Positions 78-44,951 of a stretch of 52,064 bases of DNA are shown in pieces. Location: contig CANSYK010000019.1 in assembly GCA_947651225.1 (NCBI GenBank), forward strand, positions 1-52,064, in the 5' to 3' direction. Below the pieces are notes generated by a model that made no database searches, was not told the DNA's origin, and worked only from the letters and a program-made list of their open reading frames with translations. The stretch comes from an uncultured bacterium (GTDB lineage: Bacteria > Bacillota > Clostridia > Lachnospirales > Lachnospiraceae). Numbering within the stretch: position 1 is the stretch's first letter; every line of letters starts with the position of its first letter. The position numbers were made by a program, and so were the translations under genes.

Positions 78-1898
78 ATGACCAGACATTTTCTTTATCG
101 TTATTTTTCAAAAAACCGTATGAAACACCAGTTAATCACCTTATTTATCTGTTCTATTCTTATTCCGGTTTTTATTATCGGAAATATACTGGGAATTCTT
201 ACTTACCGACGGACTACTTCCCACTATGAAGAGCTGTCCCGCTCGCAGGTAAAACTGGCACATTCTACAATTGTATCCACCTCCATATACCTGCATGCCA
301 TTTATGAAACGGTACTCAATAACGCAGAACTCCAGGAACTATTATGTACTGATGACCCTGATTTTGATTCTATGGAAGCCTCTGCAAAATTGACTGATTT
401 ACTGAACAAAACTTTATCAAATACCGCTATGCTTTCTACGCTCAAAATATACGTACCTGCAAATTTGATACAAAATACAGAACCAAACAACTATATAGCG
501 CCATTCACTAAGGAACTGGAAGAAACACCCTGGTACCAAAAATCCAGGAAAATTTCTGGAAACTTCTGGATCAGCGATATCCAAACAGGCCAGAATGATA
601 TGGATTACTGGGAACTTCACTATTGCTGCCGCATCCCGGTTCCCAGGAAAAATACCTATGCTGTATTAATAATGTCTGTTTCAAACGACTATATCCGCAA
701 TCTGATATCTAATAAAAATTATCAGATCTACATCAATGTGAAGGAGGAACCTGTATTTATAAGCTCTGACCGCCAATATGCCGGCAAAAAATTTCCTTTG
801 GATATCGAAAAAGAAGAACAGTATCTGAAAACGGGATTTTTTATGCTATTTGGCGAAAAAACAATTGGTTCTTTTGCAACGGTCAATCTGTACCACTCTT
901 CGGACAAATTGCATATTTTCGTAGCAGATGCTAATGCTGTCGGTATTACACGCCAGTTGCTTATCCTCTTTGTCACCATCATGCTTCTTGCCCTGCTGAT
1001 CTCTGTAGTCATCATTTTTTTATACGCCAATTATTTTAGCGGACGTATCAATACACTTAGGATTGCTATGTCCAAGGTAAGCAATAATGATTACAAAATT
1101 GTAGACAATATCCAGGGGGATGATGAACTTACTGCGACCTTCCATGATATGAAGACCATGGTAGAAAAGTTGAAAATGGCAGAAGCACAGATTTATCAGG
1201 CACAGATACGGGAGCAGATGATTGAAAATCAGCAGCAGCAAATGAAACTGAAACTTTTAGCAAACCAGATTAATCCACATTTTCTGTATAATACACTGGA
1301 AACCATCCGCATGAAGGCTTTCGTAGATGGGAATAAAGAAATTTCCAGAGCAATTAAACTTTTAAGTAAATCCATGCGCTATGTACTCGACAATACCCGA
1401 ACCTCCTCCACTACATTGGATAAAGAACTGGATTATATCGCCACCTATATGGCAATTATGAAACTGCGTTTCGGCTCCCGCATTAATTATGACCTTCGCA
1501 TTGATGAGCGCATTACACCATCTGATTACCGGTTACTGCCACTCCTGCTGCAGCCGGTTATTGAAAACGCTATCTCCCACGGCCTTACAGATCTGGATGA
1601 GAATGGACGCATTATTCTTAAAATATCCCTCTCCAGAGATGGGAGGAAACTAAATGCCCATGTTTTCGATAATGGCATTGGAATGTCAAAAGAAAAGCTG
1701 TCAGAGGTAACTGCCCATCTTAACACACCAGTGAAAAATTCCGAACATGGAATAGGGCTTTACAACATAAACAACCGTATCCATCTCTTTTATGGACCGG
1801 AATATGGCATTCTGATCAGAAGCAAAGAACACTGGGGAACCTGTGTTACTTTAACACTTCCATTATACAGTGTTTTGCCAAAAGCTGATCCCCCTTGA
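78..1898 (+). CDS. YesM-type membrane sensor histidine kinase
   Basis: A 606-residue two-component sensor kinase of the YesM/LytS-like class. A short cytoplasmic N-terminus is followed by a membrane helix (about 19-41), a large extracytoplasmic sensor region to about 290, a second helix (about 292-316), a HAMP region, then the His_kinase motif NPHFLYNTLE with the phospho-acceptor at His401. The HATPase part shows NAISHGL, DNGIGM and GIGLYNI. The start follows AAAGAGGG. Kinases of this class normally pair with an AraC-type (YesN) regulator and control sugar-uptake ABC systems. No regulator lies downstream, so the partner is probably left of the window. The converging gene is a broken solute-binding protein, consistent with a decayed uptake locus. 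Confidence 0.9.
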   Translation: MTRHFLYRYFSKNRMKHQLITLFICSILIPVFIIGNILGILTYRRTTSHYEELSRSQVKLAHSTIVSTSIYLHAIYETVLNNAELQELLCTDDPDFDSMEASAKLTDLLNKTLSNTAMLSTLKIYVPANLIQNTEPNNYIAPFTKELEETPWYQKSRKISGNFWISDIQTGQNDMDYWELHYCCRIPVPRKNTYAVLIMSVSNDYIRNLISNKNYQIYINVKEEPVFISSDRQYAGKKFPLDIEKEEQYLKTGFFMLFGEKTIGSFATVNLYHSSDKLHIFVADANAVGITRQLLILFVTIMLLALLISVVIIFLYANYFSGRINTLRIAMSKVSNNDYKIVDNIQGDDELTATFHDMKTMVEKLKMAEAQIYQAQIREQMIENQQQQMKLKLLANQINPHFLYNTLETIRMKAFVDGNKEISRAIKLLSKSMRYVLDNTRTSSTTLDKELDYIATYMAIMKLRFGSRINYDLRIDERITPSDYRLLPLLLQPVIENAISHGLTDLDENGRIILKISLSRDGRKLNAHVFDNGIGMSKEKLSEVTAHLNTPVKNSEHGIGLYNINNRIHLFYGPEYGILIRSKEHWGTCVTLTLPLYSVLPKADPP

Positions 1899-1916
1899 AC
1901 AACAGAGTAGCAAAAA

Positions 1917-1936
1917 GGAATTTTCAAACACACTCT
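1917..1936. repeat. Right terminus of TA-flanked small repeat (family 1)
   Basis: AATTTTCAAACACACTC followed by TA matches, with one change, the right terminal inverted repeat of the full element at 27186-27366. No left terminus is seen here. The flanking TAG is the stop codon, read on the minus strand, of the neighbouring pseudogene's last reading frame. Confidence 0.6.
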
Positions 1937-3229
1937 AGGAAGCAGCGGCAGCTCTTGCTGATGTTTGTTTTTTTGCATTGATTAAATCCACATGATACAC
2001 GTCGCCATATCCCAATCCATTAAGCGTACTCTGCAGCTCCATTAGCAGCCTATCAAATTCTTTTCCTGGCGCAAATACCATTCTCCAGGAATAATTGATA
2101 ACCATTGTTTTACACTGCCCACGCACCGTTGTGATATTTGCATCCTCATCTGCTGTCGAATAATTTGCACCAGGAGCAACCAGAAGCATGTTATGTTTCT
2201 TAAGATACTCCATCGCTGTGTCTGCTCCCATGTAAGCCCCATAGGGCCTGCTGCGCCGTTTGCCTGCCCGTTCATCTCAACGCCTTCTGGTGAATACAGC
2301 CAGTCGATAAAATCCGCAATCCTCTGTGGATCTTCTGCTTCAGAGCCGATTGCAATAATATTTGTAGGATCTCCATCTGGAAAGCATCCAAAAGAAAATA
2401 TCTGCATATCTTTTACAGGCGCCATCTTAAATCCCTTGCCCGCAACCAGATTCTCAGCAGTATGAAACATGCTTTGCCCAACCCACGGCCATGGACTATA
2501 GAGAACCTTTCCCTTCTGATACTTCAACAGCCAGGCATCATAACTCTGTGAAAAAGATTCTGGATCTACCAGCCCTCTGGAATTCGCTTCGTTGAAAAAT
2601 CGAAGTACTTTAATATAGAAAGAATCACTCTCTATGATATCCTGATAATCTGAACCATCCGCTTTAGCCAGTACAAACCCCTGCTCATCATATCCATACA
2701 TACAGACTATCTGTTTTGCGTTGTTCATCATATTATAATCCCAGTTTCCAAACAAAGAAAAGGCATAGATGCCTTCTGCTTCGACTAATTCATTCGTTTT
2801 CACTACTGCATTCCCATATTTTTTCATGATATCTTTATTCTTTATTAATTCCGTGCAATCCATAATCAGTCCAGATTTTGCCAGCTCATTGAACTTGCCG
2901 TTTGAACTATTGATTAAAATCAGGTCTCCAAGGTTGCCTGTTGCCGCACGGGTCTGATAGAGCGTATCCCCTCCGCCTCTCACATTCGGCGCAATAATGT
3001 TAAGTTCCATATTAAACCGGTCTTTCACTACTTTGGCAAACCAACCGCTCTGGATTCCCTGGTAGTTCGCAAATTCATCATATACATCTACTGTAATAAA
3101 TTCTTTATAATTTTTCTTCTCTGAACCGCCGTCTCCCAATTCCCCGGTCTCTCTGCCGCATCCTGCTGCTTGTAGTACAAACAGCGCCATATAGAACAAT
3201 ATGCAAATCACTTTCTTTTTCATTTTCAT
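1935..3229 (-). pseudogene. Decayed ABC extracellular solute-binding lipoprotein (sugar type)
   Basis: The intact 5' part encodes a lipoprotein signal with a Cys after LQAAG, then a family-1-like sugar-binding protein (WDYNMMNNAKQ, YSPWPWVGQSMF, IADFIDWLYSPEG). Near 2235 the frame is lost: the upstream frame runs on into unrelated residues, while the true C-terminus (MGADTAMEYLKKHN to the stop at 1935) is in another frame. Compared with family proteins as I remember them (around 550 residues), about 70 residues also seem to be missing near 'EAEGIYAF/SLFGNW', and a block after 'GPMGLTWE'. So this looks like internal deletions rather than one sequencing slip. The permeases and other partners are absent here. 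Deletion sizes are inferred, not measured. Confidence 0.8.
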
Positions 3230-3361
3230 AGCCTCTTTCCCTCAATCTATCTTTATTGTCCAAGCGCACTGTATATCGTATACATAATAAAATTTATAGT
3301 TATTGTAACACGAAAACTATAGATTTTCCATTACTAACATTGTTATTATTGGTTACTTCAC

Positions 3362-3457
3362 GGCTATTCAAAACATCATGCGAAAAACCATCCGGCTATG
3401 CCGTCTGGCGCTGCAAAACCAGCAGCTTTTGTTTTTCTTATGATGTTTAGAACAGCC
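3362..3457. repeat. Small dispersed repeat (family 3), copy A
   Basis: About 96 bp with inverted ends: AAACATCATGCGAAAAAC near the left end and the near complement GTTTTTCTTATGATGTTT at the right. A closely similar sequence, including CTATGCCGTCTGGCGCTG, occurs at 23886-23966. It carries no coding capacity. Confidence 0.75.
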
Positions 3458-3463
3458 TACACG

Positions 3464-3530
3464 CTGATTTTAGAAAATAATCACCCTCTTACGTGCAAGC
3501 ACGACGAGTTTGACTATTTTCTAAAATCAG
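3464..3530. repeat. Long perfect inverted repeat
   Basis: CTGATTTTAGAAAATA (3464-3479) is perfectly complementary to 3515-3530, a 16-bp stem with a 35-base loop. The sequence after it (AATCAGCCGTGAATA) recurs near 37970-37985, so this is probably another mobile or palindromic repeat rather than a terminator for a particular gene. With the family 3 copy it fills much of the 3230-3582 gap, where I see no gene. Confidence 0.7.
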
Positions 3531-3582
3531 CCGTGAATAGTAACAATAATAACAAATAAATAAAAAAAATCTAAAAAAACAC

Positions 3583-3611
3583 TTGCATTATTTTTATTTC
3601 TTTGTTATAAT
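3583..3611 (+). promoter_or_regulatory. Promoter of tRNA-Lys
   Basis: TTGCAT (-35) and TATAAT (-10) are separated by exactly 17 bases, about 31 bases upstream of the tRNA 5' end. Confidence 0.8.
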
Positions 3612-3642
3612 AGCTTCGTTGTCAAAAAATGACAACGGTTGA

Positions 3643-3715
3643 GCGCGATTAGCTCAGCTGGCAGAGCACCTGACTCTTAATCAGGGTGTCCAGGGTTCGA
3701 ACCCCTGATCGCGCA
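3643..3715 (+). tRNA. tRNA-Lys (anticodon CTT)
   Basis: A complete cloverleaf: acceptor GCGCGAT/ATCGCGC, D arm, anticodon loop CTCTTAA giving CTT (reads AAG), T loop GGTTCGAACCC, discriminator A. The 3' CCA is not encoded. Confidence 0.96.
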
Positions 3716-3717
3716 TT

Positions 3718-3766
3718 AAAGTCCTTGTTTGGCAGTTAAACTGTTGGGTAAGGGCTTTATTTTTTA
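3718..3766 (+). terminator. Rho-independent terminator after tRNA-Lys
   Basis: AAAGTCCTT pairs with AAGGGCTTT around a loop that itself holds CAGTTAAACTG, followed by a T-rich tail (ATTTTTTAT). It may also serve the converging dehydrogenase gene. Confidence 0.75.
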
Positions 3767-3767
3767 T

Positions 3768-4544
3768 CTAATCTCTTTTTAAAACAGCCACCGCTTTTGA
3801 TTTCATTTTAACAGGTATCAAACGAAGAAGGCGGTTGAAAATCCCTGGCACAATAATCTCCCGATTCTTCATTAATCCATTATATGCGATATGTGCCACC
3901 CGATCTGGTGACATTGCCCAAAATGGCGTTTTCTTACCTGCCCTTCGAAAGAAATTCGTATGGGTTGTTCCTGGATACAATGTACATACCTGTATGCCCT
4001 TTCTTGCCGCCTCACTACGGATTGCCCGGCTATAACTTGCCACATATGCCTTGCTGGCATAATATGCGGCTGTATATGGTCCTGGCTGAAAGGCACCTAC
4101 AGAAGCCACATTTAAAATCTTTCCGCCGCCCTTTTGATACATTTCACGCAAAAATACAGTGCATAACTGTGTAACAGCCTGTATATTCACCTGAAGCATC
4201 TGGTTAAGTTTTTCTGCATCATTTGTCACTGCTTCTCCTATCAGTCCCACCCCGGCATTATTTACTAAAATATCAACCGAAACCTTTTTCTTCTTTAACT
4301 GTTGATTTATTTTCTGTGCAGCATCTGGCATACTTAAATCCTGGCAGATTGTCACTATCCCATTTTTCCCTCCCTGCATAAATTGCAGCAATTTTACTTC
4401 CGTCTGGTACAATCTTTCCTTAGAAGGCGAAACTAGAATCAAATCATATCCTTCTTTTCCAAAGCATTTCGCAAGCGCAAAACCAATTCCGCTTGTCGCA
4501 CCTGTGATTAAAACTGTCTTTCTTTTCTTCATAATTTTCACCAA
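3768..4544 (-). CDS. Short-chain dehydrogenase/reductase
   Basis: A 258-residue classical SDR, an NAD(P)-dependent oxidoreductase of unknown substrate. The Rossmann motif TGATSGIG lies near residues 14-21, LVNNAGVG near 95, the catalytic Ser region NVASVG near 147, and Tyr/Lys in YYASK near 160. It therefore has a complete Ser-Tyr-Lys triad and normal family length. Two starts are possible: GTG at 4544 or ATG at 4532 (MKKRKTVLITG); the ribosome site is weak for either. It stands alone between tRNA-Lys and a repeat-rich gap, so context does not suggest a substrate. Confidence 0.9.
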   Translation of the reverse strand: MVKIMKKRKTVLITGATSGIGFALAKCFGKEGYDLILVSPSKERLYQTEVKLLQFMQGGKNGIVTICQDLSMPDAAQKINQQLKKKKVSVDILVNNAGVGLIGEAVTNDAEKLNQMLQVNIQAVTQLCTVFLREMYQKGGGKILNVASVGAFQPGPYTAAYYASKAYVASYSRAIRSEAARKGIQVCTLYPGTTHTNFFRRAGKKTPFWAMSPDRVAHIAYNGLMKNREIIVPGIFNRLLRLIPVKMKSKAVAVLKRD

Positions 4545-4634
4545 GCCTCAAGCGAAGACGCTTGCATTTTATCCTTCCTTCTTTTTTTCTTTTCCCTCTC
4601 TACATAATCTTTCCTGCCTGCCAAATACACTCTA

Positions 4635-4712
4635 GAGCGTGTTTGAAAATTGCTTTTTTTGACTAAATGGGGGCAAATATTGCACAAAGCATAGAGTGCA
4701 GATTGTGAACCA
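4635..4712. repeat. Partial family 1 repeat
   Basis: It starts TA-GAGCGTGTTTGAAAATTGC and continues with internal sequence (TGACTAAAT..., GCACAAAGCATAGAGTGCAG) matching the full element at 27186-27366, but the right terminus is missing. Between here and 4870 I see nothing coding. Confidence 0.75.
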
Positions 4713-4870
4713 CCATTCATAGCAATTTACAGTCACCTGTTTTACTGTTTCTCCATAAGATATTATACCAGATCCTATTAAAAACAGCGATATTATAACG
4801 GTTTCCAGTCGATTTTTTTTAAATATCAGAAGCAAAACATTCTGATATTCCCAAAAGCCATTGTAAATAA

Positions 4871-4922
4871 TATAGTAAACGAAAAAAACGCTTGCATTTT
4901 GCTTCGTTTACAGCGCCGGATA
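4871..4922. repeat. 52-bp hairpin repeat, copy B
   Basis: Reverse complement of bases 1-52 with one mismatch. The two copies bracket the kinase, broken transporter gene, tRNA-Lys and dehydrogenase as an inverted pair about 4.9 kb apart. Confidence 0.85.
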
Positions 4923-5006
4923 CACGCTGCAAAGCAGCATAACTTCCTATGTGTATCCGTGTGCATCCATTATAGTTAACGCATGTATTTTATGCGTTTA
5001 CTATAA
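4918..5006. other. Run of stem-loops upstream of a small gene
   Basis: Directly after repeat copy B come GGATACA...TGTGTATCC (4918-4959, with inner GCTGC-AAA-GCAGC) and TTATAGTTAACGCAT / ATGCGTTTACTATAA (4970-4984 / 4992-5006, one mismatch, seven-base loop). With copy B this makes three consecutive hairpins ending about 20 bases before the ribosome site at about 5021-5027. TATAAT at 5002-5007 could be a -10 box embedded in the last stem. Confidence 0.55.
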
Positions 5007-5036
5007 TATAAAATCAACAAAAAGGAGATAACACCT

Positions 5037-5195
5037 ATGTCCAGATGCCCCAATAAGCTCGCCCGCCGCCTGCAATGCAACATCCCCCTGAACCGAAAAG
5101 CTCTCTGCTTAAAGCGTTCCTGGGATGAAGTCTCTGCCATATTAGACAAAGCCTGTGCCAAAAAATGCCCTTCCGAAAAGAAAAAACATCATTAA
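5037..5195 (+). CDS. 52-residue basic Cys-containing small protein
   Basis: An ATG after AAAGGAGATAACACCT (strong site, good spacing) opens 52 codons ending in TAA. The product begins MSRCPNKLARRLQCNIPL and ends in a Lys/His-rich tail (EKKKHH). It has five Cys (4, 14, 24, 40, 44), many Lys/Arg, no signal peptide and no membrane segment. I do not recognise a family. The Cys spacing (about ten residues apart, then CAKKC) could bind a metal, but that is a guess. It is preceded by three stem-loops and followed by a short family 1 repeat. Whether it is expressed cannot be judged here. Confidence 0.55.
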   Translation: MSRCPNKLARRLQCNIPLNRKALCLKRSWDEVSAILDKACAKKCPSEKKKHH

Positions 5196-5248
5196 TTGAC
5201 TTTCGGCCTCCCTTTTGTTACTATTCACAGTTAGGATCTTGTCTGCCA

Positions 5249-5315
5249 GAGCATGTTTGAAAAATGCAGATTGTAAGGAACGGAACGTTCCTGGAATTAT
5301 TTTTCAAACACGCTC
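5249..5315. repeat. Short family 1 repeat (internally deleted)
   Basis: Both termini are present (GAGCATGTTTGAAAAATGC ... TTTTTCAAACACGCTC), but only 67 bp long. The interior (GCAGATTGTAAGGAACG, then CGTTCCTGGAAT) equals the right-hand third of the full copy at 27186-27366. It sits just upstream of the HAD gene's ribosome site. Confidence 0.85.
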
Positions 5316-5339
5316 TGGTTCTGAAAGAGGGGGTTTTCT

Positions 5340-6095
5340 ATGTTTCAGCCAAAACTTATTGTCACCGACTTAGACGGAACGGCATTGAAGAAAAACAAAA
5401 CAATATCCAAAGCCACAGCAGAAGCCTTTACCTGGTGCAAACGTAACAAAATTCCATCAGCAATCGCCACAGCTCGTTACATCGGCGGCGCCATGCCATA
5501 TGCAAAGGCACTGCATGCAGATTTCCAAATCCTTACTGATGGAACTTTGGTCTATGAAAACGGCTCTTTGATTTATTCAAACGCAATGGACATTTCAACC
5601 ACAAATGCTATCCTTTTAGAACTAAAAAAACGCAGCTATACTTCCCACATCACAATCTCCACCACAAAAGGAATATACCGTTATCCGGCAAACTCCCGAA
5701 ACCGCAACAGCGGATTTTGCTTCTCACTTGAAGAAAATTTCCCTTATCCCGGAAATAAAATGGTCGTAGAACTTCCAGAAGATTGCGTTGCAGAAGAAAT
5801 TGCAAAACAATGCCACTGCCGCCAGTTTCGTTACCGTGATGAAAACCGTTATGCTTTTTGCAGCAAAACCGCCAGCAAACTGGATGCCATTTTACAGATC
5901 ACACAAAAAATCGGAATTACCCTAAATGATGTACTTGCCTTTGGCGACGACCTCAATGACCTTGATATGATTATCCATTGTGGTTATGGCGTTGCTATGG
6001 GAAATGCACTGGAAGAGGTAAAAACTGCAGCAAATGAAGTTGCTGAAAGCAACGAAAATGATGGCGTTGCCAAAATCCTTTCCCGATATCTTTAA
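5340..6095 (+). CDS. Cof-type HAD hydrolase
   Basis: A 251-residue HAD-superfamily phosphatase of the Cof/YidA type (subclass IIB), probably acting on sugar phosphates or similar small phosphomonoesters. Motif I is TDLDGT (Asp nucleophile and general acid near residues 10 and 12). A C2-type cap fills the middle, and motif IV FGDDLNDLDMI lies near 200-210. Length is slightly short for the family (usually 260-290). The start follows AGAGGGGG. It converges with rplL and shares its terminator. No substrate can be assigned from context. Confidence 0.9.
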   Translation: MFQPKLIVTDLDGTALKKNKTISKATAEAFTWCKRNKIPSAIATARYIGGAMPYAKALHADFQILTDGTLVYENGSLIYSNAMDISTTNAILLELKKRSYTSHITISTTKGIYRYPANSRNRNSGFCFSLEENFPYPGNKMVVELPEDCVAEEIAKQCHCRQFRYRDENRYAFCSKTASKLDAILQITQKIGITLNDVLAFGDDLNDLDMIIHCGYGVAMGNALEEVKTAANEVAESNENDGVAKILSRYL

Positions 6096-6129
6096 AAATT
6101 TTCTCAGATCGCTGATTTTTTACATACTT

Positions 6130-6161
6130 AAAAAGGACACTGCCATGCAGCATCCTTTTTT
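6130..6161. terminator. Bidirectional terminator between HAD gene and rplL
   Basis: AAAAAGGA pairs with TCCTTTTT around an inner CTGC-CAT-GCAG stem, giving an A-run on one side and a T-run on the other, as expected for converging genes. Confidence 0.85.
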
Positions 6162-6186
6162 ATCTTTATAAATAGAGAAATATTTC

Positions 6187-6552
6187 TTATTTAAGGGTAA
6201 CCTTAGCGCCTTCGCCTTCCAGTTTAGTCTTAATCTCTTCTGCCTCATCTTTAGAAGCACCTTCTTTAACAACCTTAGGAGCGCCATCAACAACTTCCTT
6301 AGCTTCCTTCAGTCCCAAACCGGTTACTTCACGAACAACCTTAATTACTTTAACCTTGTTTGGTCCAACCTCGGTAAGTTCTACATCAAACTCATCCTTT
6401 TCAGCTGCTGCATCAGCTGCCCCGCCTGCTGCTGCTACAACAACACCTGCTGCTGCAGATACGCCAAACTCTTCTTCACAAGCCTTTACTAAATCATTTA
6501 ACTCTAACACTGTCATGCCTTTAATAGCATCAATAAATTCCTGAGTAGTCAT
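6187..6552 (-). CDS. rplL: 50S ribosomal protein L7/L12
   Basis: 121 residues, the normal length. The N-terminal dimerisation domain ([19 protein letters not shown]) is followed by the Ala/Gly-rich hinge (near 38-52) and the C-terminal factor-binding domain ([32 protein letters not shown]). It binds L10 as dimers to form the ribosomal stalk that recruits translation GTPases. GGAGG precedes the ATG. It is the second gene of the rplJ-rplL unit, transcribed from the L10 leader. No rpoB follows, unlike in many bacteria. Confidence 0.98.
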
Positions 6553-6617
6553 TTTATTATACCTCCATATAAATTAATTAATCCTGCGCCCTTCTGTATC
6601 AGGGCTGTCAAACTGTA

Positions 6618-7118
6618 TTAAGCTTCTGCTGCACTATCACCCTTTTCCGCAATCTGATTAAGAACACGGGCAAGATTTGTAATAGGTGACTGCAAGGAAC
6701 CAAGCAGCTTGGAAATAAGTTCCTCTCTGGAAGGAATACTTGCAAGTGCCTTTACACCATCTACATCATAGAAATTGCCTTCTACAACAGCACCTTTGAA
6801 CTCCAGTGCCTCTGCTTCTTTCGCCATATTATTCAGAATTCTGATCGGCGCCGTAGCATCTTCCATGGAAATAGCAATTGAGGAAGGTCCATCCAACAAA
6901 TCATTTAACTGCGCAAAATCTGTCCCCTCAAATGCACGCTTCATCAAAGTGTTCTTGTACACCTTGTATTCACAGCCAGCTTCCCTGAGGTCTTTACGAA
7001 GTCTTGTATCCTGCTCTACCGTCAGTCCACGATAATCAACTAATACAACTGTTGCAGCACCGTCAACCTTAGACTTAATCTCGTCAACAATCGGCTGCTT
7101 TAACTCTACTTTTGCCAT
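6618..7118 (-). CDS. rplJ: 50S ribosomal protein L10
   Basis: 166 residues from ATG at 7118 (MAKVELKQPIVDEIKSKV), chosen because AAGGAG lies just upstream; a longer reading from 7160 would run into the leader RNA. L10 anchors L7/L12 dimers to 23S rRNA and is the autogenous repressor of this operon. Family landmarks include VVLVDYRGLTVEQ, YKVYKNTLMKRA and the C-terminal helix that binds L12. It is followed by rplL after a 65-base gap. Confidence 0.98.
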   Translation of the reverse strand: MAKVELKQPIVDEIKSKVDGAATVVLVDYRGLTVEQDTRLRKDLREAGCEYKVYKNTLMKRAFEGTDFAQLNDLLDGPSSIAISMEDATAPIRILNNMAKEAEALEFKGAVVEGNFYDVDGVKALASIPSREELISKLLGSLQSPITNLARVLNQIAEKGDSAAEA

Positions 7119-37527: not shown

Positions 37528-37803
37528 TCATGTAATTGTAAAATAGTACTGTAACGCATAGAGTAAAATCACGCCCCAAATCCCTAAAAATCCCGAAACA
37601 CCAATTGTAATTTCGTTAATATTTACAATAAAATTTCCACCAAAATATTCAACCAAAAAATTGACAACATAAATAATTACAAGGCCTGACAGGCATCTTA
37701 CCAGAAAATTCAGAACCAGCCTGATTACATCTACACCCATTGAACCTAAAAAAACAAGAAAACCACCTACAAACAACATAATAAATATGGTATTTTCCAT
37801 CAT
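37528..37803 (-). CDS. bofA: BofA-like sporulation membrane protein
   Basis: 91 residues with two or three hydrophobic helices, ending in EYFGGNFIVNINEITIGVSG and GIWGVILLYALQYYF. This is the BofA (pro-sigma-K processing inhibitor) pattern. In Bacillus BofA holds the SpoIVFB protease inactive in the forespore outer membrane. The divergent YaaL-like gene recalls the Bacillus recR-yaaL-bofA order, rearranged. It supports a spore-forming host. Confidence 0.85.
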   Translation of the reverse strand: MMENTIFIMLFVGGFLVFLGSMGVDVIRLVLNFLVRCLSGLVIIYVVNFLVEYFGGNFIVNINEITIGVSGFLGIWGVILLYALQYYFTIT

Positions 37804-38022: not shown

Positions 38023-38250
38023 ATGAAGAGCAGAAGAAAGCAAGAAAAACTCCCTAAAAAGGAAGTTTTTCTGAAAAAAGCATTGCTAGATGCCCAAAGA
38101 AACCTAAAAGATGCCTATAATGGACTTGCAAATGTAAATGACCCTGATCTGATTGACAGCTATATTTATGAAGTTAACGCCGCCAACCTGCGCTATCAGG
38201 TAATCCTGCGCGACTATAAACTGCTAGAAAGCCAGAAACCTTCTGTCTGA
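38023..38250 (+). CDS. YaaL-like (DUF2508) protein
   Basis: 75 residues, charged and mostly helical (KKALLDAQRNLKDAYNGLAN, DPDLIDSYIYEVNAANLRYQ). This matches the DUF2508/YaaL family, small cytoplasmic proteins of unknown function encoded next to bofA in spore formers. AAGGGGG precedes the ATG. It diverges from bofA across a 219-base spacer that contains AATCAGCCGTGAATA, the flank of the inverted repeat at 3464-3530. Confidence 0.8.
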   Translation: MKSRRKQEKLPKKEVFLKKALLDAQRNLKDAYNGLANVNDPDLIDSYIYEVNAANLRYQVILRDYKLLESQKPSV

Positions 38251-38282: not shown

Positions 38283-39716
38283 CTACGCCTGTGGCGAACG
38301 AAGCCAGTCAAATGTGCTATACAAATTCAGTGTTCCATTTCCCCATTCACGGCTCGGAACCGTAATTCCTGACCGATCTGCTCCTCGTATCAGATATTTT
38401 TTTGCTTTCTGTGTATCCATCGCAATGTCATTTCCTCGGACGATTGCCCATTCTGCCAGGAGCGCAATGGCGCCTGATGCCACTGCCGTTGATTCGCTGG
38501 AACCACTGCGAATTCCATAACGCGCCCTGCTGTCACGCTCTTCTTCTCCCACCGGATAATTTCCGGCAAAAGGAAGCGTTCCATAAATATTCATTCCCGG
38601 AGCCGCAATATCCGGTTTTATTTCCTGCTCCCTAGTGAATCCTCTGCTGGATTCAATTACAACGGAACGATTCATAGAATCAAAAAAAGCAAATGTAATA
38701 ATTCCTGGATTATTTCCTGGATCACAAATCGTCGTATCTGGATTTGCCCTTAAAAAATAAGTGTCTGCATCAAGAAAATTTGTCATAGGAAGCCACATAT
38801 CAAATCGTCCAAAATAATGTGTATCATTAAAGACCCGAATTTTCCAAATCCCTTCTGACGGATTCTGAAAACGGATACGGATGCATTCATCCCCGTTTTC
38901 AAAAGAAACTAGCAGATATTCTATATACACCACTGTCCCTTCGAATAAAAAATTTACCTGTCTTTTTTCTCCTAATCTTGCCTGAGTCTTTCCAGAATAC
39001 TCCCCTCCTGGTGAAATCAGCCCAACAGAATAAAGCTCTGTGGTAGCTGCCCAAAGTTCCAGCGTAAAACCGCTTTCATTCCCTCCAACCCTAACCTCAA
39101 CCTCAACTTCGCTCTCCGAACTGATCGGAGCATTCAAATAGTGATGGGAAGCATTCGCTTCATTGCCACCTGCGGCCGCCACAAAAAATCCACGATAATC
39201 TCCATAATCTGCCAATAATTTTCCTAAAATTCCCCCAAGATTGTGTCCTCCCTGATTTGTCCCCATTCCAAGGCAAACCACTAAAGGCATTTTCAGCAAA
39301 CTCGCCTGTTTCGCTAAATAGCGTATTGCCAGCATAATATCATTTTCTGCGTAACAGGGCTCTGACGTGTTGATAAAATAGTAATCTCGCAGATTTTGTT
39401 TGGCCTGTTTGCATTTTACCATGCAAATGCCAGCCAGCGGAGCCACACCAGAAAACCCCTGTGCTTCCATCTCATTTCCACAGGCAACCCCTGCCAGAAA
39501 AGTTCCATGCCCCTCTATATCACGGCTTGGAACAATTTCTAAGGGGTTATCACTCTCTAAGGCACGATTAATATCCTCCTGAGTATATTCTACCCCATAA
39601 TCAAAATATTCTGGCGCATGATCTCCCTTGCGCAATTCCTCCACCGTCTGATCCCATATAGAAACAATTCGCGTCCTCCCATCACTGCCTATAAAAGCCG
39701 GATGGGAATAATCTAT
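38283..39716 (-). CDS. 3' part of a split Csp-type S8 protease gene
   Basis: From IDYSHPAFIG at 39716 to the stop, 477 codons of a subtilisin-like protease follow. The active-site His is in EGHGTFLAGVACG, the Ser in SGSSESTAVASGAIALL, and a jelly-roll insert (about 220-340) is typical of clostridial Csp germination proteases. The frame stays open upstream to 39824, but those 36 codons belong to the inserted element and have no ribosome site. The missing front is at 43006-43332. Joined, the two parts give 584 residues, a normal Csp length, with all three catalytic residues. Csp proteases cleave pro-SleC to start spore cortex degradation. Confidence 0.88.
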   Translation of the reverse strand: MDYSHPAFIGSDGRTRIVSIWDQTVEELRKGDHAPEYFDYGVEYTQEDINRALESDNPLEIVPSRDIEGHGTFLAGVACGNEMEAQGFSGVAPLAGICMVKCKQAKQNLRDYYFINTSEPCYAENDIMLAIRYLAKQASLLKMPLVVCLGMGTNQGGHNLGGILGKLLADYGDYRGFFVAAAGGNEANASHHYLNAPISSESEVEVEVRVGGNESGFTLELWAATTELYSVGLISPGGEYSGKTQARLGEKRQVNFLFEGTVVYIEYLLVSFENGDECIRIRFQNPSEGIWKIRVFNDTHYFGRFDMWLPMTNFLDADTYFLRANPDTTICDPGNNPGIITFAFFDSMNRSVVIESSRGFTREQEIKPDIAAPGMNIYGTLPFAGNYPVGEEERDSRARYGIRSGSSESTAVASGAIALLAEWAIVRGNDIAMDTQKAKKYLIRGADRSGITVPSREWGNGTLNLYSTFDWLRSPQA

Positions 39717-39764
39717 CCCCTCTCCTGTTAAATAACTGTTATAAAAACAGATCCTCATGCCAAA

Positions 39765-39795
39765 AAGGCAGGATACCTTATAAGATTCCTGCCTT
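39765..39795. terminator. Hairpin near the element's inner end
   Basis: AAGGCAGGA and TCCTGCCTT form a perfect nine-base stem inside the element, downstream of the hemerythrin gene. It lacks a strong T-run. Confidence 0.6.
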
Positions 39796-39808
39796 AGTTC
39801 TTGCAAAA

Positions 39809-39858
39809 AGCAATTTTTAAACACACTCCAAGCTCTGTAAATAAATTATTTACAGAGC
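39809..39858. repeat. Family 1 right end fused to a minimal family 2 palindrome
   Basis: GCAATTTTTAAACACACTC (39810-39828) is a mutated family 1 right end. It is followed by the perfect palindrome GCTCTGTAAATAA-A-TTATTTACAGAGC (39832-39858), whose halves resemble family 2 ends. It may also stop transcription of the hemerythrin gene. Confidence 0.6.
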
Positions 39859-39877
39859 CTTGCTATGTATGCACATT

Positions 39878-41254
39878 TTATATAACTTGCCGTGTCCCAC
39901 TATCCTTTTTTACAAAATAGTCATCAATATTTTTCTTAATTTCAGCAATCTTTGGTCCCTTTAAGAAATAACCCTCCGGTTTTAAAGGCACTATCTTGCT
40001 GATGCTCTCCTTATCACTCCTGCTTGTCAAAAAGATAACCGGAATATCTGTGAATGCAGCCTCAGAGCGAATCATCTGAAATATCTGTGCGCCATCGCAG
40101 ACGGGCATTTCATAATCCAGAAGCACAAGATCTGGCCGTTCCAGTGTCAGACACCGGATGGCGGATATACCGGACTCTGCCAGTGAAATCTGATAGTCCT
40201 CCTGCAAAAGTTCCTTCATAGCCTGACGTACCGTCGCAGAATCATCCACTAAAAGTAATTTCTTTTTCCCAATATTGCTTTCGCTTTCCTCTTCTTTCTT
40301 TGAAAGGTACTCCCGAATCTCTGCCATAGCATTTTCTGGATCAATCGAAACACCACTTTTTCCTAACCTCAAATTTGATGCCATAACACAAAAAGCAAAA
40401 TACCCTGACCTTGTACCAAACAGTAAACTGTGCTGTGGAGGCTGCCTGTCAAAAGCCCTGTAGAATTGCTCATATGTAAGCAGATTTTCACTTCTCAATT
40501 TATTTGACTGACTAAATGTAAAACTATTCTTGATACATTCCACGAACTGCTTTGCCATATATCTCGCAGCATTCATCTGCATAACATCCACTTTCTCTGA
40601 TTGATCCCCAATTAATTTTCCAGCTGTATCAATCAGCAGCTTTTCCTCAAAAACCAGAATAATCTCCTGACATCCACCGTCCTCTTTATCATAGGTAAGG
40701 CGATAATAAATTCCTTTTCCAAACTTTTCGCCGCCATAGCACTCACTGACTATCCGTACATCTAATTGAAACAGCTCTCTTAATACCCTCGTGATTACCT
40801 CAATTACCGCAGTCTGCTCCTCCTCTGGCAGCAGCCTTCCCCACTTTTTAATTTTCTCACCCACAATCGCATGATCTTCCGTCAAGGTATGAGCAATCAA
40901 CCAACCGGCACAAACACCTATAAAATGACGGATTGACTCTTTTGAAAAGTTAGTTAATTCCATCTCACTTTCTAGTGCCGGAAGGATACGCCAGCGGAAA
41001 TCTTGATGGAGACGCTTATGCGTTTCCAGCTCTGGGTAATGTATAGACTCCATATAGCCCTCTTCTTCCGCAAAATGTTTCAACGCATGGCCTTTAAAAT
41101 ATTTAATTCCTTCCTGACAAACCCAAGAACTCTTGTCTTCCTCTTCAATAAATGAAAACAACCTGTTAATAACTCTAAAAAGTTTCTTATGCTCTGTATC
41201 AATAATATCTACACCAATATTATATCGCTCTTCCCACATCAGCTGATTTCCCAT
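39878..41254 (-). CDS. Hemerythrin - CheX-like - receiver protein
   Basis: 458 residues from ATG at 41254 (MGNQLMWEERYN), with AAGGAGGG upstream. Residues 1-140 form a bacteriohemerythrin domain with di-iron ligands in DTEHKKLF, HALKHFAEEEGYM, HKRLHQDF and HTLTEDH. The middle part (about 150-330) has a CheX-like phosphatase feel (YMAKQFVECIKNSF). The C-terminal receiver domain (LLLVDDSATVRQAM, DLVLLDYEMPVCDG, PVIFLTSRSDK) keeps its acidic pocket. It could couple O2 or redox sensing to phospho-signalling. It lies inside the element as cargo, minus strand, 115 bases downstream of the recombinase. Confidence 0.8.
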   Translation of the reverse strand: MGNQLMWEERYNIGVDIIDTEHKKLFRVINRLFSFIEEEDKSSWVCQEGIKYFKGHALKHFAEEEGYMESIHYPELETHKRLHQDFRWRILPALESEMELTNFSKESIRHFIGVCAGWLIAHTLTEDHAIVGEKIKKWGRLLPEEEQTAVIEVITRVLRELFQLDVRIVSECYGGEKFGKGIYYRLTYDKEDGGCQEIILVFEEKLLIDTAGKLIGDQSEKVDVMQMNAARYMAKQFVECIKNSFTFSQSNKLRSENLLTYEQFYRAFDRQPPQHSLLFGTRSGYFAFCVMASNLRLGKSGVSIDPENAMAEIREYLSKKEEESESNIGKKKLLLVDDSATVRQAMKELLQEDYQISLAESGISAIRCLTLERPDLVLLDYEMPVCDGAQIFQMIRSEAAFTDIPVIFLTSRSDKESISKIVPLKPEGYFLKGPKIAEIKKNIDDYFVKKDSGTRQVI

Positions 41255-41369
41255 AATGCCCTCCTTGCCATCGTGCAATCCAAATGTTGCATATAATGAA
41301 TATTATAACACAAAACATTCTAAAAGTCAGCAAAAATTATTTTTATCAGTGTTAGCCTCCTCTATCTAT

Positions 41370-42929
41370 TTACTCTTCCAAATCGATTTTTATTTGATGG
41401 TTTTGATACACCGCAATCCGTTTTATTAAAATTTGTAAGATTTCTTTTGTCAAAACAAACGCTTCCCTTCCTTCCATAATTCCTTTCAATGCCTCTTCTT
41501 CTGCTACAGCTTCCCGTTTCATATTATGATACTGTCTCTTTATGCTTTCCTTCCTTTCCAGTATTTCATCCATCCAATCCCTATTTTCTTTTTTACGTTT
41601 CTGATACTCTTGCAAAGAAATCTCTCCCATATAATATTTAAGATATTCTTCACTGTCCTGCCTTTTTCTGTTTTCCAGTTTTCTGTCACACTTTGTAATC
41701 TCCCATCTGAACTTATTTTCCATATCTTCTGTCTGCCTTTTCCGCTTTTCCTCCAGTCTCTTCCGATGCTCACCTGCCAAAACAAACTCCCGCTGCAAAG
41801 CATTTTTTACCAATTTCTCCAAAGCAGATGCTCCAATACTTTTTGAGGGACATTTTAAAGCATCCAGCCTCTTAGAATCAGGACAATAATAACTATAATT
41901 GCTAACCACTTCGCCAGAACACAGCTTTTTTACACTCACTGCCTTTCCCATTCTTTTTCCACAGTCTCCGCAATATAATATTCCGCCAAAAATGTCTTCC
42001 CTGACAGGCATTTTCTTAAAACGCTCTTTCTGCTCGCAACATCTTTTAGCTGCATTTTCAAGCCTCGCTGCTGTCTGAAAAAAGATTGATTCACTGACGA
42101 TTGCATCCTGTGTATAACAATCTCTTCCCATATAAACAGAATTGGTCAAAATCCATTTTACCGTTGCACTTGTCCACTGCTCCAAAAGTTCCCCATTCCT
42201 GCAGAATACATGGCCTGTTTTTCGGTAAGTAGATGGTCTGTGTATTTTTAATATATACAATTCTTCTATAATCCGTTTCAGCCCTTTCCCTGACAAATAC
42301 ATCCTATAAATATCCTGCACAACCTTTGCTGCCTCCTTATAGATTAATAGCTTTTTCTTCCCATTTTTCCATTTGGCAATATAACCATATGGCGGTATTC
42401 CTCCTGTATAGTTTCCCTGTTCTCTACGAATCTGAACACTGGATTTTACTTTTGCCGCAATATCTTTTGCATACATTTCATTTAGCAGATTTTTCAAATT
42501 CATCGTCAGCTCATCCGTTTTCTCACCCATCTGGTAGGTATCAATTCCATCTGAAACCGCAATAAAACGCACTCCCATAAAAGGAAAAATTTTTTGAATG
42601 TAATTTCCTGTTTCTATATGATTTCGGCCAAACCGGGACAAATCTTTTACAATAATGCAGTCAATCCGGTTTTTGCGTACATCCTCCATCATCCGCTCAA
42701 ATCCTTCCCGCTTAAAATGGGTTCCCGTTTTTCCTAAATCTATATAACAATCAAACAACTCAATTTCTTTGTGTTCCTTAATATATTCCTTTGCAAGAGC
42801 AATCTGCGTATCAATTGACTCATTTTTTCTCGCATCTGCTTCCACAGACAATCTTACATAAATTCCTGCCAGAAAACGTTTACCGCCTGTCCCCTGCTCC
42901 TCTTTTCTTTTCCTGGAGGTTTTTGCCAT
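41370..42929 (-). CDS. Large serine recombinase
   Basis: 519 residues from ATG at 42929 (MAKTSRKRKEEQGTGG), with GAGGTGG upstream. The resolvase domain has the catalytic Ser in GIYVRLSVEAD and conserved Arg in KDLSRFGRNHIETG. A recombinase domain (GGIPPYGY, ILTNSVYMG) and a zinc ribbon (FGGILYCGDCGKRMG ... YYCPDSKRLDALKC) follow, then a long C-terminal coiled coil. This is the layout of phage integrases, TnpX and skin-element recombinases. Its start lies about 80 bases inside one element end. It is the obvious enzyme for integration and, with a directionality factor, excision. No excisionase was recognised. Confidence 0.95.
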   Translation of the reverse strand: MAKTSRKRKEEQGTGGKRFLAGIYVRLSVEADARKNESIDTQIALAKEYIKEHKEIELFDCYIDLGKTGTHFKREGFERMMEDVRKNRIDCIIVKDLSRFGRNHIETGNYIQKIFPFMGVRFIAVSDGIDTYQMGEKTDELTMNLKNLLNEMYAKDIAAKVKSSVQIRREQGNYTGGIPPYGYIAKWKNGKKKLLIYKEAAKVVQDIYRMYLSGKGLKRIIEELYILKIHRPSTYRKTGHVFCRNGELLEQWTSATVKWILTNSVYMGRDCYTQDAIVSESIFFQTAARLENAAKRCCEQKERFKKMPVREDIFGGILYCGDCGKRMGKAVSVKKLCSGEVVSNYSYYCPDSKRLDALKCPSKSIGASALEKLVKNALQREFVLAGEHRKRLEEKRKRQTEDMENKFRWEITKCDRKLENRKRQDSEEYLKYYMGEISLQEYQKRKKENRDWMDEILERKESIKRQYHNMKREAVAEEEALKGIMEGREAFVLTKEILQILIKRIAVYQNHQIKIDLEE

Positions 42930-43005
42930 AGCACACCACCTCAATTGCCGCATCCTCACTTCATTCTTATTAAGAAAACCAACCGCTTTATGACAATAAA
43001 ATAAC

Positions 43006-43332
43006 TCACTCCCCTGTATCAATAAACCCTACTAAGACCCCCTGTCCATATAGGTTCAGCCCTGCCTGCCTCCGCACTCTGGCAATTCCTGCCCGTTCTA
43101 ACACCTCGTCAGAAGTAAGCAAGCCATAACAATGGGGAATTACCTTTACTCCAGAATAACTGTTAAGTGTGTAAGCGTCCCCCTCTTCATATAGTACGGC
43201 AAAATGGCCGGAAGCCGCCTTGTAGCAATAATACTTATCTGCGTCCTCCAGTACCAGACTATTCCATGCGTATTCCACTAAAAAATCCAGATATTCTTCT
43301 GAATAAATCCGTTTCCTGCACTCTTCTGGCAT
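43006..43332 (-). CDS. 5' part of a split Csp-type S8 protease gene
   Basis: 108 codons from ATG at 43332 (MPEECRKRIYSEEYLDFLVE), with GGAGG upstream. A prodomain-like region is followed by LNLYGQGVLVGFIDTG, ending in the S8 catalytic-Asp motif; one element-encoded Glu and a TGA then stop translation. In related proteases this motif continues IDYTHPAF, which is how the 3' part at 39716 begins. In the integrated state only this inactive fragment would be made. Confidence 0.9.
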   Translation of the reverse strand: MPEECRKRIYSEEYLDFLVEYAWNSLVLEDADKYYCYKAASGHFAVLYEEGDAYTLNSYSGVKVIPHCYGLLTSDEVLERAGIARVRRQAGLNLYGQGVLVGFIDTGE

Positions 43333-43434
43333 AAAAATCCTCCATGCTGCATTTTTTGCGGCTCAAATAAAGAAAAGAAGTGTTTGCCGCAATTTACAAA
43401 CTCTTCCTGTTTTCTATCTATTCTATTCAAAATA

Positions 43435-43514: not shown

Positions 43515-44951
43515 TTAATTTTCTGTTTTATCTGGAAGTTCATCCCTTTGCATCAAAAGTTTTGCCTCACCACTTCCGCGCATTTCAATCACCGTAGCAC
43601 CTTTTTTCTCAATATAATCTTTTGTAATTGTCACCCTGCCAATCAAGTCATCTTTTGGTATTTCGTACATAATATCCAGCATAAATTCTTCAATAATCGC
43701 ACGCAAAGCCCTTGCGCCGGTTTTCTTTTCCACTGCCTTTTTTGCAATCGCACTGATTGCTTCCTCATCAAAACGCAAATCTACTTCATCCAACGCCAAT
43801 AGTTTTTGGTATTGCTTTGTAATTGCATTTTTCGGCTGTGTCAGCACTTTTGCCAACATTTCCTCGGTCATTGCCTGCAGAGAAAAAACTACTGGCAGAC
43901 GCCCTAAAAATTCTGGAATCATTCCAAATTCCCTCAAATCTTCTGTTGTTACTTTTTGAAGGATATTTTCATCCTTGTCAAATTCATCATGAAGCTGCCC
44001 GGTAAAACCAATGGAAGAGCTTCTTGTCAGACGGTTCTTTATCACTTTTTCTAACTCTGGGAAGGCACCACCGCAGACAAAGAGAATATTTCTTGTATTT
44101 ACTGTTGCCATCGGTACCATCGCATTTTTACTGGTGGCTCCTACTGGCACCTCCACATCGCTGCCCTCTAAAAGTTTTAACATTCCCTGTTGCACAGATT
44201 CTCCACTGACATCTCTACTATTCGTATTCCTTTTCTTTGCAATTTTATCAATCTCATCAATAAAAATGATACCATGCTCCGCTTTTTCCACATCATTGTC
44301 CGCCGCTGCCAGAAGTTTTGACAATACACTTTCCACATCATCCCCAATGTAACCTGCTTCTGTCAGAGAAGTCGCATCTGTAATCGCAAGCGGCACCTGT
44401 AAGATTTTAGCAAGCGTTCTAACAAGATATGTCTTACCAGAACCAGTCGGCCCAATCATTAACATATTAGACTTTTCAATCTCAATATCGTCCTCTTCCC
44501 CTGTATCCGTCAACACACGCTTATAATGATTGTAAACGGCAACCGACATAACCTTTTTCGCAAATTCCTGTCCGACTACATATTCGTCCAGTGTGCCTTT
44601 AATTACATGCGGCGCAGGTAAATGTTTAATATCAAAAATGCCCTCTGGCTGTTTGTTTTTCGCTGCCTTCTTTTCTTCTTTTTTCTTTTTCAGTTTTTGA
44701 TTCTTTGGCACTTCCGCATGCTGTGGCGGCTGCCCCATCGTAAACATATCCATATATGGCATTCCCGCAAATGGGCCGCCCATTTTTTCCATAGAATCGA
44801 ATGTTTTTTGCATGCAATCCTTGCAAATACATATATTATTCGGTATATGAATCATTTTTCCAGCAACTCTTTCTGACCTTCTGCAAATATAGCAGACATC
44901 TTCATATTCCGATCCATTATTCTTGTTATTATTTTTGTTCTCTTCCGACAT
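43515..44951 (-). CDS. clpX: ClpX-like AAA+ unfoldase
   Basis: 478 residues from ATG at 44951 with GAGGTGG upstream. The N-terminal C4 zinc finger (CYICRRSERVAG, CICKDC) is followed by a Lys-rich low-complexity linker (QKLKKKKEEKKAAKNKQ, near 80-100) not usual in ClpX. The AAA+ core then has Walker A GPTGSGKTYLVRTLA, Walker B IIFIDEID, sensor and RSSSIGF-like loops, and a C-terminal domain. The pore-loop region reads EAGYIGDDVES. It unfolds substrates for ClpP; no clpP is adjacent. It is about 50 residues longer than standard ClpX, so it may be a second, specialised copy. Confidence 0.92.
   Translation of the reverse strand: MSEENKNNNKNNGSEYEDVCYICRRSERVAGKMIHIPNNICICKDCMQKTFDSMEKMGGPFAGMPYMDMFTMGQPPQHAEVPKNQKLKKKKEEKKAAKNKQPEGIFDIKHLPAPHVIKGTLDEYVVGQEFAKKVMSVAVYNHYKRVLTDTGEEDDIEIEKSNMLMIGPTGSGKTYLVRTLAKILQVPLAITDATSLTEAGYIGDDVESVLSKLLAAADNDVEKAEHGIIFIDEIDKIAKKRNTNSRDVSGESVQQGMLKLLEGSDVEVPVGATSKNAMVPMATVNTRNILFVCGGAFPELEKVIKNRLTRSSSIGFTGQLHDEFDKDENILQKVTTEDLREFGMIPEFLGRLPVVFSLQAMTEEMLAKVLTQPKNAITKQYQKLLALDEVDLRFDEEAISAIAKKAVEKKTGARALRAIIEEFMLDIMYEIPKDDLIGRVTITKDYIEKKGATVIEMRGSGEAKLLMQRDELPDKTEN

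Follow-up and report, generated by a model that had tools for sequence, protein, structure and literature searches.

The window analyzed here, a stretch of 52,064 nucleotides from an uncultured bacterium of the Lachnospiraceae, carries a cspA-like gene for a spore germination protease of the S8 family which is split in two by an intervening element of 3.3 kb. The element is located at the GG of a glycine codon next to the catalytic aspartate. It has arms of the large serine recombinase (LSR) type and carries an LSR gene; once it is removed, the reading frame found in relatives is recreated. Judged from substitution rates, both gene halves are constrained like unsplit copies. We consider it likely that a domesticated and reduced integrative element keeps cspA in two pieces and is excised in sporulation. 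As far as genome comparison can tell, the finding is larger than first noted in a sequence-only reading of the window, since several germination genes are affected, some inserts have no recombinase and some gene copies consist of three pieces.

The genome holding the window (here named G000) belongs to a genus, probably of gut Lachnospiraceae as we assume, that was represented by 28 genomes in our set. The genomes compared were mostly drafts of many contigs, and several were incomplete.

The coordinates and contents of the two gene parts were as the sequence-only reading had given them, with the 5' fragment ending at DTG of the catalytic Asp motif and the 3' fragment starting at IDY. The former was homologous to residues 1-107 of intact orthologues, the latter carried the His (GHGT) and Ser (GSSES) motifs. 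When the flanks of 39717-43011 were joined, 1,755 nt comprising 584 codons and a single terminal stop were obtained, the three motifs lying at residues 105 (DTGID), 176 (GHGT) and 512 (GSSES); thus the predicted in-frame gene of 584 codons with all triad motifs was recovered by a deletion of 3,295 bp.

The germination type of the protease, also claimed before, was borne out by the solved structures nearest to the 3' fragment, which were germination proteases (9pr8, E 4.4e-52; 4i0w, CspB, E 2.5e-50). In profile searches with the CspBA model, this fragment matched best within the CspA half (227 bits at positions 661-1099). The NCBIfam cut-offs were not reached (227 vs 1250 bits for the CspBA fusion, 196 vs 675 for CspC), both models being of the exception type, and the 5' fragment alone gave no family match in the profile search. 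A second S8 paralogue of the same genome (L090) matched the CspB half of the CspBA model with 417 bits, below the cut-off. On these matches the split gene is classified as a Csp-type germination protease, nearest to CspA.

An empty site, which had been proposed as something to look for in relatives, was found. The cspA locus was obtained from 25 congeneric genomes (G005, G023 and G024 were searched as well and did not yield it). Eleven of them have the halves joined directly as DTG|ID, without any additional residue. The other 14 are interrupted at this codon; both halves were seen in 12 of these, and the right junction only in G025 and G020. Split and intact states clustered on the protein tree (29 rows, 4 changes versus a shuffled mean of 12.3), which fits inheritance of most splits.

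Both the left and the right cspA junctions contain GG, corresponding to codon positions 1-2 of the split Gly, while the 3' half of the gene supplies the third base (GGC in both L044 and L045). Because this third base tracks the 3' half in relatives, the crossover is placed at GG (43014-43013 with 39719-39718), which gives the deletion of 3,295 bp. The sequence-only reading had started from a GGGG shared by both junctions. Its GG core is backed by the junctions of the relatives, but aligning the junctions on GGGG would give an out-of-frame deletion of 3,294 bp.

The ends of the cspA elements are of two kinds. Those here named type A read ..TTGACATAAGAG-GG and GG-GGAACGTGTTATTATATTG.., whereas those of eight species here named group B mostly read ..ACACCAGCG-GG and GG-GNCTGGTGT... 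A plan ACA-N6-GG-N6-TGT is common to both kinds, in cspA as well as in cspB-type elements. From their sequence, the arms form a dyad around the core, like the phage attachment sites (attP) of LSRs. Together with the empty sites and the selection on both halves described below, this supports the earlier view of a precisely excisable element.

Size and gene content of the cspA insert vary among the split species. G004 and G006 carry islands of 18.5 and 20.7 kb with a tandem LSR triplet and unrelated cargo, the cargo being named by open reading frame (ORF) reading; the triplet in the insert of G025 is similar. The insert of G008 consists of 1,674 bp with a hemerythrin gene and no LSR. In group B the inserts measure 4.5-5.4 kb and code for a MoxR-type ATPase, a protein that matched no Pfam family and a transglutaminase, five of them with araD in addition (cargo families by profile search in G001 only).

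In the leader before the LSR triplet an inverted repeat CAGGA...TCCTG was observed in L071, L072, L037 and L084, and a less similar one in L135. A search of Rfam at gathering thresholds found nothing for this leader in seven loci; its one match, an HTH-XRE RNA in L135, is located away from the leader. Further serine recombinase triplets or pairs of the genus occur in L102, L103, L104, L105, L106, L107 and L109, with no csp fragment in the fetched stretch.

Upstream of the 5' fragment the motif [CA]ATANNNTA was present in 22 of 23 species (mean 4.0 and maximum 10 in 300 shuffles) and AC-N15-17-[CA]ATANNNTA in 12 of 23 (mean 0.39, maximum 2); for both counts the motif was picked after viewing the very sequences scored. 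According to the available part of one report on C. difficile, the -10 elements of sigma-E and sigma-K are very similar, csp depends on sigma-E and sleC on sigma-K, and an AC -35 occurs at a sigma-K promoter (PMC3789822). A mother-cell promoter reading into the LSR gene would make excision part of sporulation. The motif of mother-cell type and the split sigK and sleC genes described below point to sporulation as the putative time of excision.

We propose the following course. In the sporulating cell, a mother-cell promoter of the protease gene itself would drive transcription across the 5' fragment and on into the gene of the recombinase just behind it. The recombinase would then join both attachment sites and release the element as a circle, resulting in an intact cspA for the forming spore. 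The germ line would retain the split copy because the mother cell dies.

Recombinase and arms would equally serve a reversible or stochastic switch in growing cells, i.e. a bet hedging between readily germinating and non-germinating spores without a terminal mother-cell event, and both states of the yin element of Clostridium botulinum were found in pure culture (PMC10747680, accessible part). Still, we regard such switching as unlikely. The upstream motif is of the mother-cell type and sigK of the same genome is split; moreover, phage serine recombinases need an extra factor to excise, so that free two-way switching is less likely (PMC5595907, accessible part).

The LSR islands in G004, G006 and G025, lying at the same site, indicate that the site is a target of mobile elements. 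The protease could therefore be a dead gene, broken by a mobile element, no longer needed and decaying in fragments. This is improbable in view of the substitution rates. The ratio of non-synonymous to synonymous substitutions (dN/dS) in both halves is far below 1 over dS of ~0.4-1.7 between split lineages. It was 0.03-0.17 for split csp orthologue pairs with unsaturated, non-zero dS (0.118 and 0.064 for the cspA halves of G000/G008, 0.030 and 0.050 for the halves of G013/G014) and 0.077-0.145 for intact pairs; the cspB-type genes of G002/G019 were identical and hence uninformative. For split sleC, the 5' halves gave 0.085-0.189 in five pairs, with dS saturated in two more; in three pairs of 3' halves dS was saturated and dN close to 0.15. 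Moreover, the fragments have open frames and conserved motifs, the regions of the His and Ser motifs being kept in the split csp 3' halves, and the attachment ends are largely kept in the eight species with LSR-less cspA inserts.

In 12 of the 21 split csp loci, the stretch from the last stop codon to the conserved 3' frame contains no ATG, GTG or TTG; in 11 of these 12 the first internal start lies at residue 17 or later, and in 7 an in-frame stop is located two codons ahead. With so many loci lacking a start codon, the 3' part could hardly be produced from the split form. The codons before the first internal start gave a pooled dN/dS of 0.197 over 177 codons. It is very improbable that the fragments are made as two polypeptides which then form an active protease with no rearrangement of the DNA. 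Even though the 3' frame in the window is open upstream, with starts 36, 30 and 14 codons before the conserved part, these start-less loci, the cut at the catalytic Asp and the unsplit orthologues of close relatives speak against it. An excised and rejoined gene is the best reading, since the halves are under purifying selection and start codons are missing in 12 of 21 loci.

Several points weigh against excision of the element in sporulation, besides the choice of the promoter motif mentioned above. The upstream region in the window has the -10-like motif without an AC -35 match. The window arms are of type A, but the left arm reads AGT where relatives have TGT. The window LSR is without 26 linker residues that four homologues have, which makes its activity uncertain, and no recombination directionality factor was recognised among the ORFs of the 3.3-kb element, such factors being small and diverse. 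The cspA inserts of G008 and of all eight group B species contain no recombinase. Finally, one pair of five (G002/G019) gave a dN/dS of 0.76 over the head of the 3' fragment, which may be a variable stretch.

Features of the split cspA-like locus and its neighbors in the window
Feature	Position	Strand	Remarks
cspA-like 5' fragment	43006..43332	-	107 codons up to Gly of the catalytic DTG, followed by one element codon and a stop
cspA-like 3' fragment	38283..39716	-	477 codons from IDYSHPAF and a stop; Peptidase_S8
Intervening element	39717..43011	.	3,295 bp; deletion restores the frame; absent in 11 relatives
Left attachment site (approximate extent)	42990..43030	-	GG core 43014-43013, element arm GGAGTGAGTTATTTTATTG; by comparison of relatives' junctions
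Right attachment site (approximate extent)	39700..39745	-	Element arm GTTATTTAACAGGAGAG, GG core 39719-39718; by relatives' junctions and pattern search
Large serine recombinase, LSR2 type, 519 aa	41370..42929	-	PF00239, PF07508, PF13408
Cargo protein with hemerythrin and response-regulator receiver domains	39878..41278	-	Middle part without Pfam match
AATAGAATA, -10-like motif of sigma-E/K type	43419..43427	-	95 nt upstream of the 5' fragment start
bofA, neighbor outside the element	37528..37803	-	PF07441
DUF2508 / YaaL-type neighbor gene	38023..38250	+	PF10704
Neighbor on the 5' side, taken from its sequence to be clpX	43515..44951	-	

The serine recombinase gene does sit at one end of the element, as had been noted, beginning 76 bp past the stop of the 5' fragment. 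All three Pfam domains of its product scored above cut-off, although PF07508 matched only over 2-59 of 102 positions. The protein matched the middle gene product of the LSR triplets at 52%, and the motif RLS, whose Ser we take to be the catalytic residue, was unchanged in all five aligned LSRs. Both genes of the element have the orientation of the cspA fragments. A 67% identical homologue of the hemerythrin/response-regulator protein is encoded by the main gene of the G008 cspA insert. The bofA and yaaL-like genes named earlier as neighbors were likewise found by profile.

The cspB-type paralogue is affected as well. From 26 loci in the genus 20 were fetched, including every one noticed with a short open frame. 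Eight were split at the homologous codon, DSG|ID (both halves seen in G008, G013 and G014, the right junction only in five), 11 were continuous there and G011 was unresolved. G002 and G019 share a practically identical contig and were therefore counted once; G002 holds a continuous copy in addition.

A second break, at a Gly codon further along the gene (EWG|I) and with similar left arms, was found in cspA of G007 and G019 and in the cspB-type gene of G008 and of G002/G019. C-terminal pieces were located near LSR genes on separate contigs for the cspB-type gene in G008, G002 and G019 and for cspA in G007, while none was found for cspA of G019. G008 thus has its cspB-type gene in three pieces. 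Close to its end, the cspA of G015 also diverges from the family. The cspB-type gene of the window genome runs on without a break at DSG but diverges after DPYLY; its remainder past this point was searched for and not found.

The pattern of a right junction of type A with codons for Ile-Asp-Tyr behind it was present in 8 of 397 genomes of the family, the reversed pattern in none of the 397. Two of the matches are G000 and G002, and the other six, each starting a Csp-like 3' part, belong to other genera. LSR genes adjoin four of these six junctions (L134, L135, L136, L139). Both halves were seen in L134 and L139, and L137 and L138 begin near a contig edge. Chance or misassembly as the cause of the split was rejected because the same codon is hit in two paralogues and seven genera, i.e. 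in 14 of 25 cspA loci, 8 of 20 cspB-type loci and six other genera.

In a further genus, L061 (G036:C19, ~1723-3606) has 1,577 bp between the halves of a Csp-like gene, with the break after DSGID; arms of the csp-element type were not seen at this break.

Tracing a short recombinase pair of the group B genomes, here named SA and SB, led to sleC, which encodes the cortex-lytic enzyme that is the substrate of Csp proteins. An intact protein of 421 aa in G017 was identified as SleC by its match to the pre-pro-form (9h68, E 1.7e-129 over residues 13-420). Among 21 genomes searched, the 5' part of sleC was found in 18: nine were cut after VVIP (site 1), three (G000, G008, G006) further along the gene (site 2) and five were whole, while G011 had an open frame of 410 aa at a contig edge. 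The 3' part was seen in five of the nine genes cut at site 1 (in G025 partly) and, for site 2, in G000 only.

The five inserts at site 1 show a recurrent order of a recombinase gene or pair, an esterase-like gene, a zinc-ribbon-like gene and a gene for a protein of 427-488 aa; a Pfam check of this cargo was made for the esterase alone, in G001. In most species the ends read ..ACACCAGC-CC.. and ..CC-GCTGGTGT.., so that the arms are those of the group B cspA inserts with CC instead of GG as the coding-strand core. Because the arms are shared, SA/SB is a candidate for acting on both sleC site 1 and cspA. Site 2 carries an ORF resembling a tyrosine integrase, followed in G008 and G006 by phage-type ORFs, as named by ORF reading.

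In the window genome itself, sleC (L192, G000:C88, ~212-3912) has an insert of ~2.4 kb with a tyrosine-integrase-like ORF and otherwise only a small excisionase-like and a flavin reductase/rubredoxin-like ORF (by ORF reading). In G025 (L196, L205, L206) sleC is seemingly cut twice, and two more sleC-like copies, close to other serine recombinase genes, cease to match around residue 231.

The sigK gene was searched in 17 genomes. Its halves lie apart in seven (G000, G001, G004, G008, G015, G025, G027), nine genes are whole, and G019 showed the N half only. Six of the seven have a separate serine recombinase between the two halves; in G027 the halves are on two contigs. In the window genome the gene (L144, G000:C14, ~1290-6903) is interrupted near residue 91/92, and a separate serine recombinase gene lies between its halves. 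The sigK inserts of G001 and G015 (L147, L148) contain phosphorylase, phosphopentomutase, transporter and aldolase-like genes by ORF reading, a cargo resembling nucleoside metabolism, i.e. ordinary metabolism inside a sporulation gene.

A model of one recombinase for each insert was ruled out by the recombinase-less cspA inserts of G008 and group B. For these LSR-less inserts, the matching arms at other split germination genes suggest action in trans, probably by the recombinases residing in cspB and sleC. The assignment is made because the arms are similar and not because of a clean presence/absence profile. A strict pairing of SA/SB with group B cspA inserts was rejected, short SB-like genes being present in G003, G011, G025 and G016 as well. 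A stop codon interrupts the SB-like copy of G002, and for G007 no such gene was listed.

Taken further, a genus-wide DNA splicing of the cortex-lysis pathway appears possible, although we put it forward tentatively. Here sigK, cspA, cspB and sleC would be held in two to three pieces in the germ line, recombinases would cross-cut in trans, and the excisions in the mother cell would be ordered, with sigK first and the genes driven by sigma-E/K thereafter. If so, the spore would be equipped with a germination apparatus which the vegetative genome is unable to encode.

Spore germination may thus depend on DNA excision during spore formation. Developmental excision is known gene by gene, whereas here one pathway (CspA, CspB-type, SleC, sigK) is repeatedly interrupted, at fixed places and by different recombinases, across one genus. 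The stages span large islands, prophage-like inserts and bare cassettes of 1.7-3.3 kb, by which the domestication of mobile elements into developmental switches becomes directly comparable. Cross-acting recombinases are predicted. On the practical side, the annotation of draft genomes may wrongly label such bacteria as germination-deficient.

A literature search over titles and abstract openings, with preprints and most subscription papers outside its coverage, retrieved no report of a split csp or sleC gene, which does not show absence from print. Within this scope the csp and sleC splits, the interruption of several genes of one pathway and the recombinase-less inserts are apparently unreported. 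A CspBA homologue of another spore former, truncated at its N terminus and missing the first catalytic Asp, was set aside by the authors of one study (PMC3567191, available part); possibly it represents a split of the same kind.

The following comparisons refer to the available parts of the cited papers. The precise interruption of a gene, the empty site, the restoration of the frame, the recombinase and the two attachment sites are features shared with elements of the skin, gin and yin kind. As in the case of skin in sigK (B. subtilis, C. difficile), SPbeta in spsM and the spoVFB element, a recombinase-bearing element splits a sporulation gene, and precise excision between attachment sites at both ends restores the frame (PMC5595907, PMC10747680). 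Unlike these, the element described here hits a germination protease at the catalytic codon, and comprises only 3.3 kb without recognised phage genes; in related species, inserts occur that have no recombinase, and several genes belonging to one pathway are split.

The gin element in gerE of Bacillus cereus ATCC10987 is likewise not a phage and carries three serine recombinase genes inside a sporulation gene, and GirC is required together with GirX (PMC5595907). It differs by its size of 28.6 kb, by girC being distant from girAB and by its target; in our set the full islands have three tandem LSR genes, the other inserts one or none. Yin interrupts yabG, also a sporulation protease gene, and YabG processes CspBA and pre-pro-SleC in C. 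difficile; its recombinase gene lies behind the 5' part of yabG in similar orientation, as in the window (PMC10747680). However, yin is prophage-like and derives from an environmental isolate, whereas the inserts found here are reduced, kept across species and located in the Csp and SleC genes themselves.

Three serine recombinases also form the integration module of cargo islands in the integrative and conjugative elements of Streptococcus suis, which differ in their integration sites and their conjugation modules; a gene-restoring role is not described in the part of the source available (PMC5053989). Recombination units of different elements can substitute for one another (PMC6957869), which loosely fits the proposed action in trans. 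On the present reading of the genomes, the system is best described as a skin-like sporulation intervening element that has been extended to several genes of one pathway.

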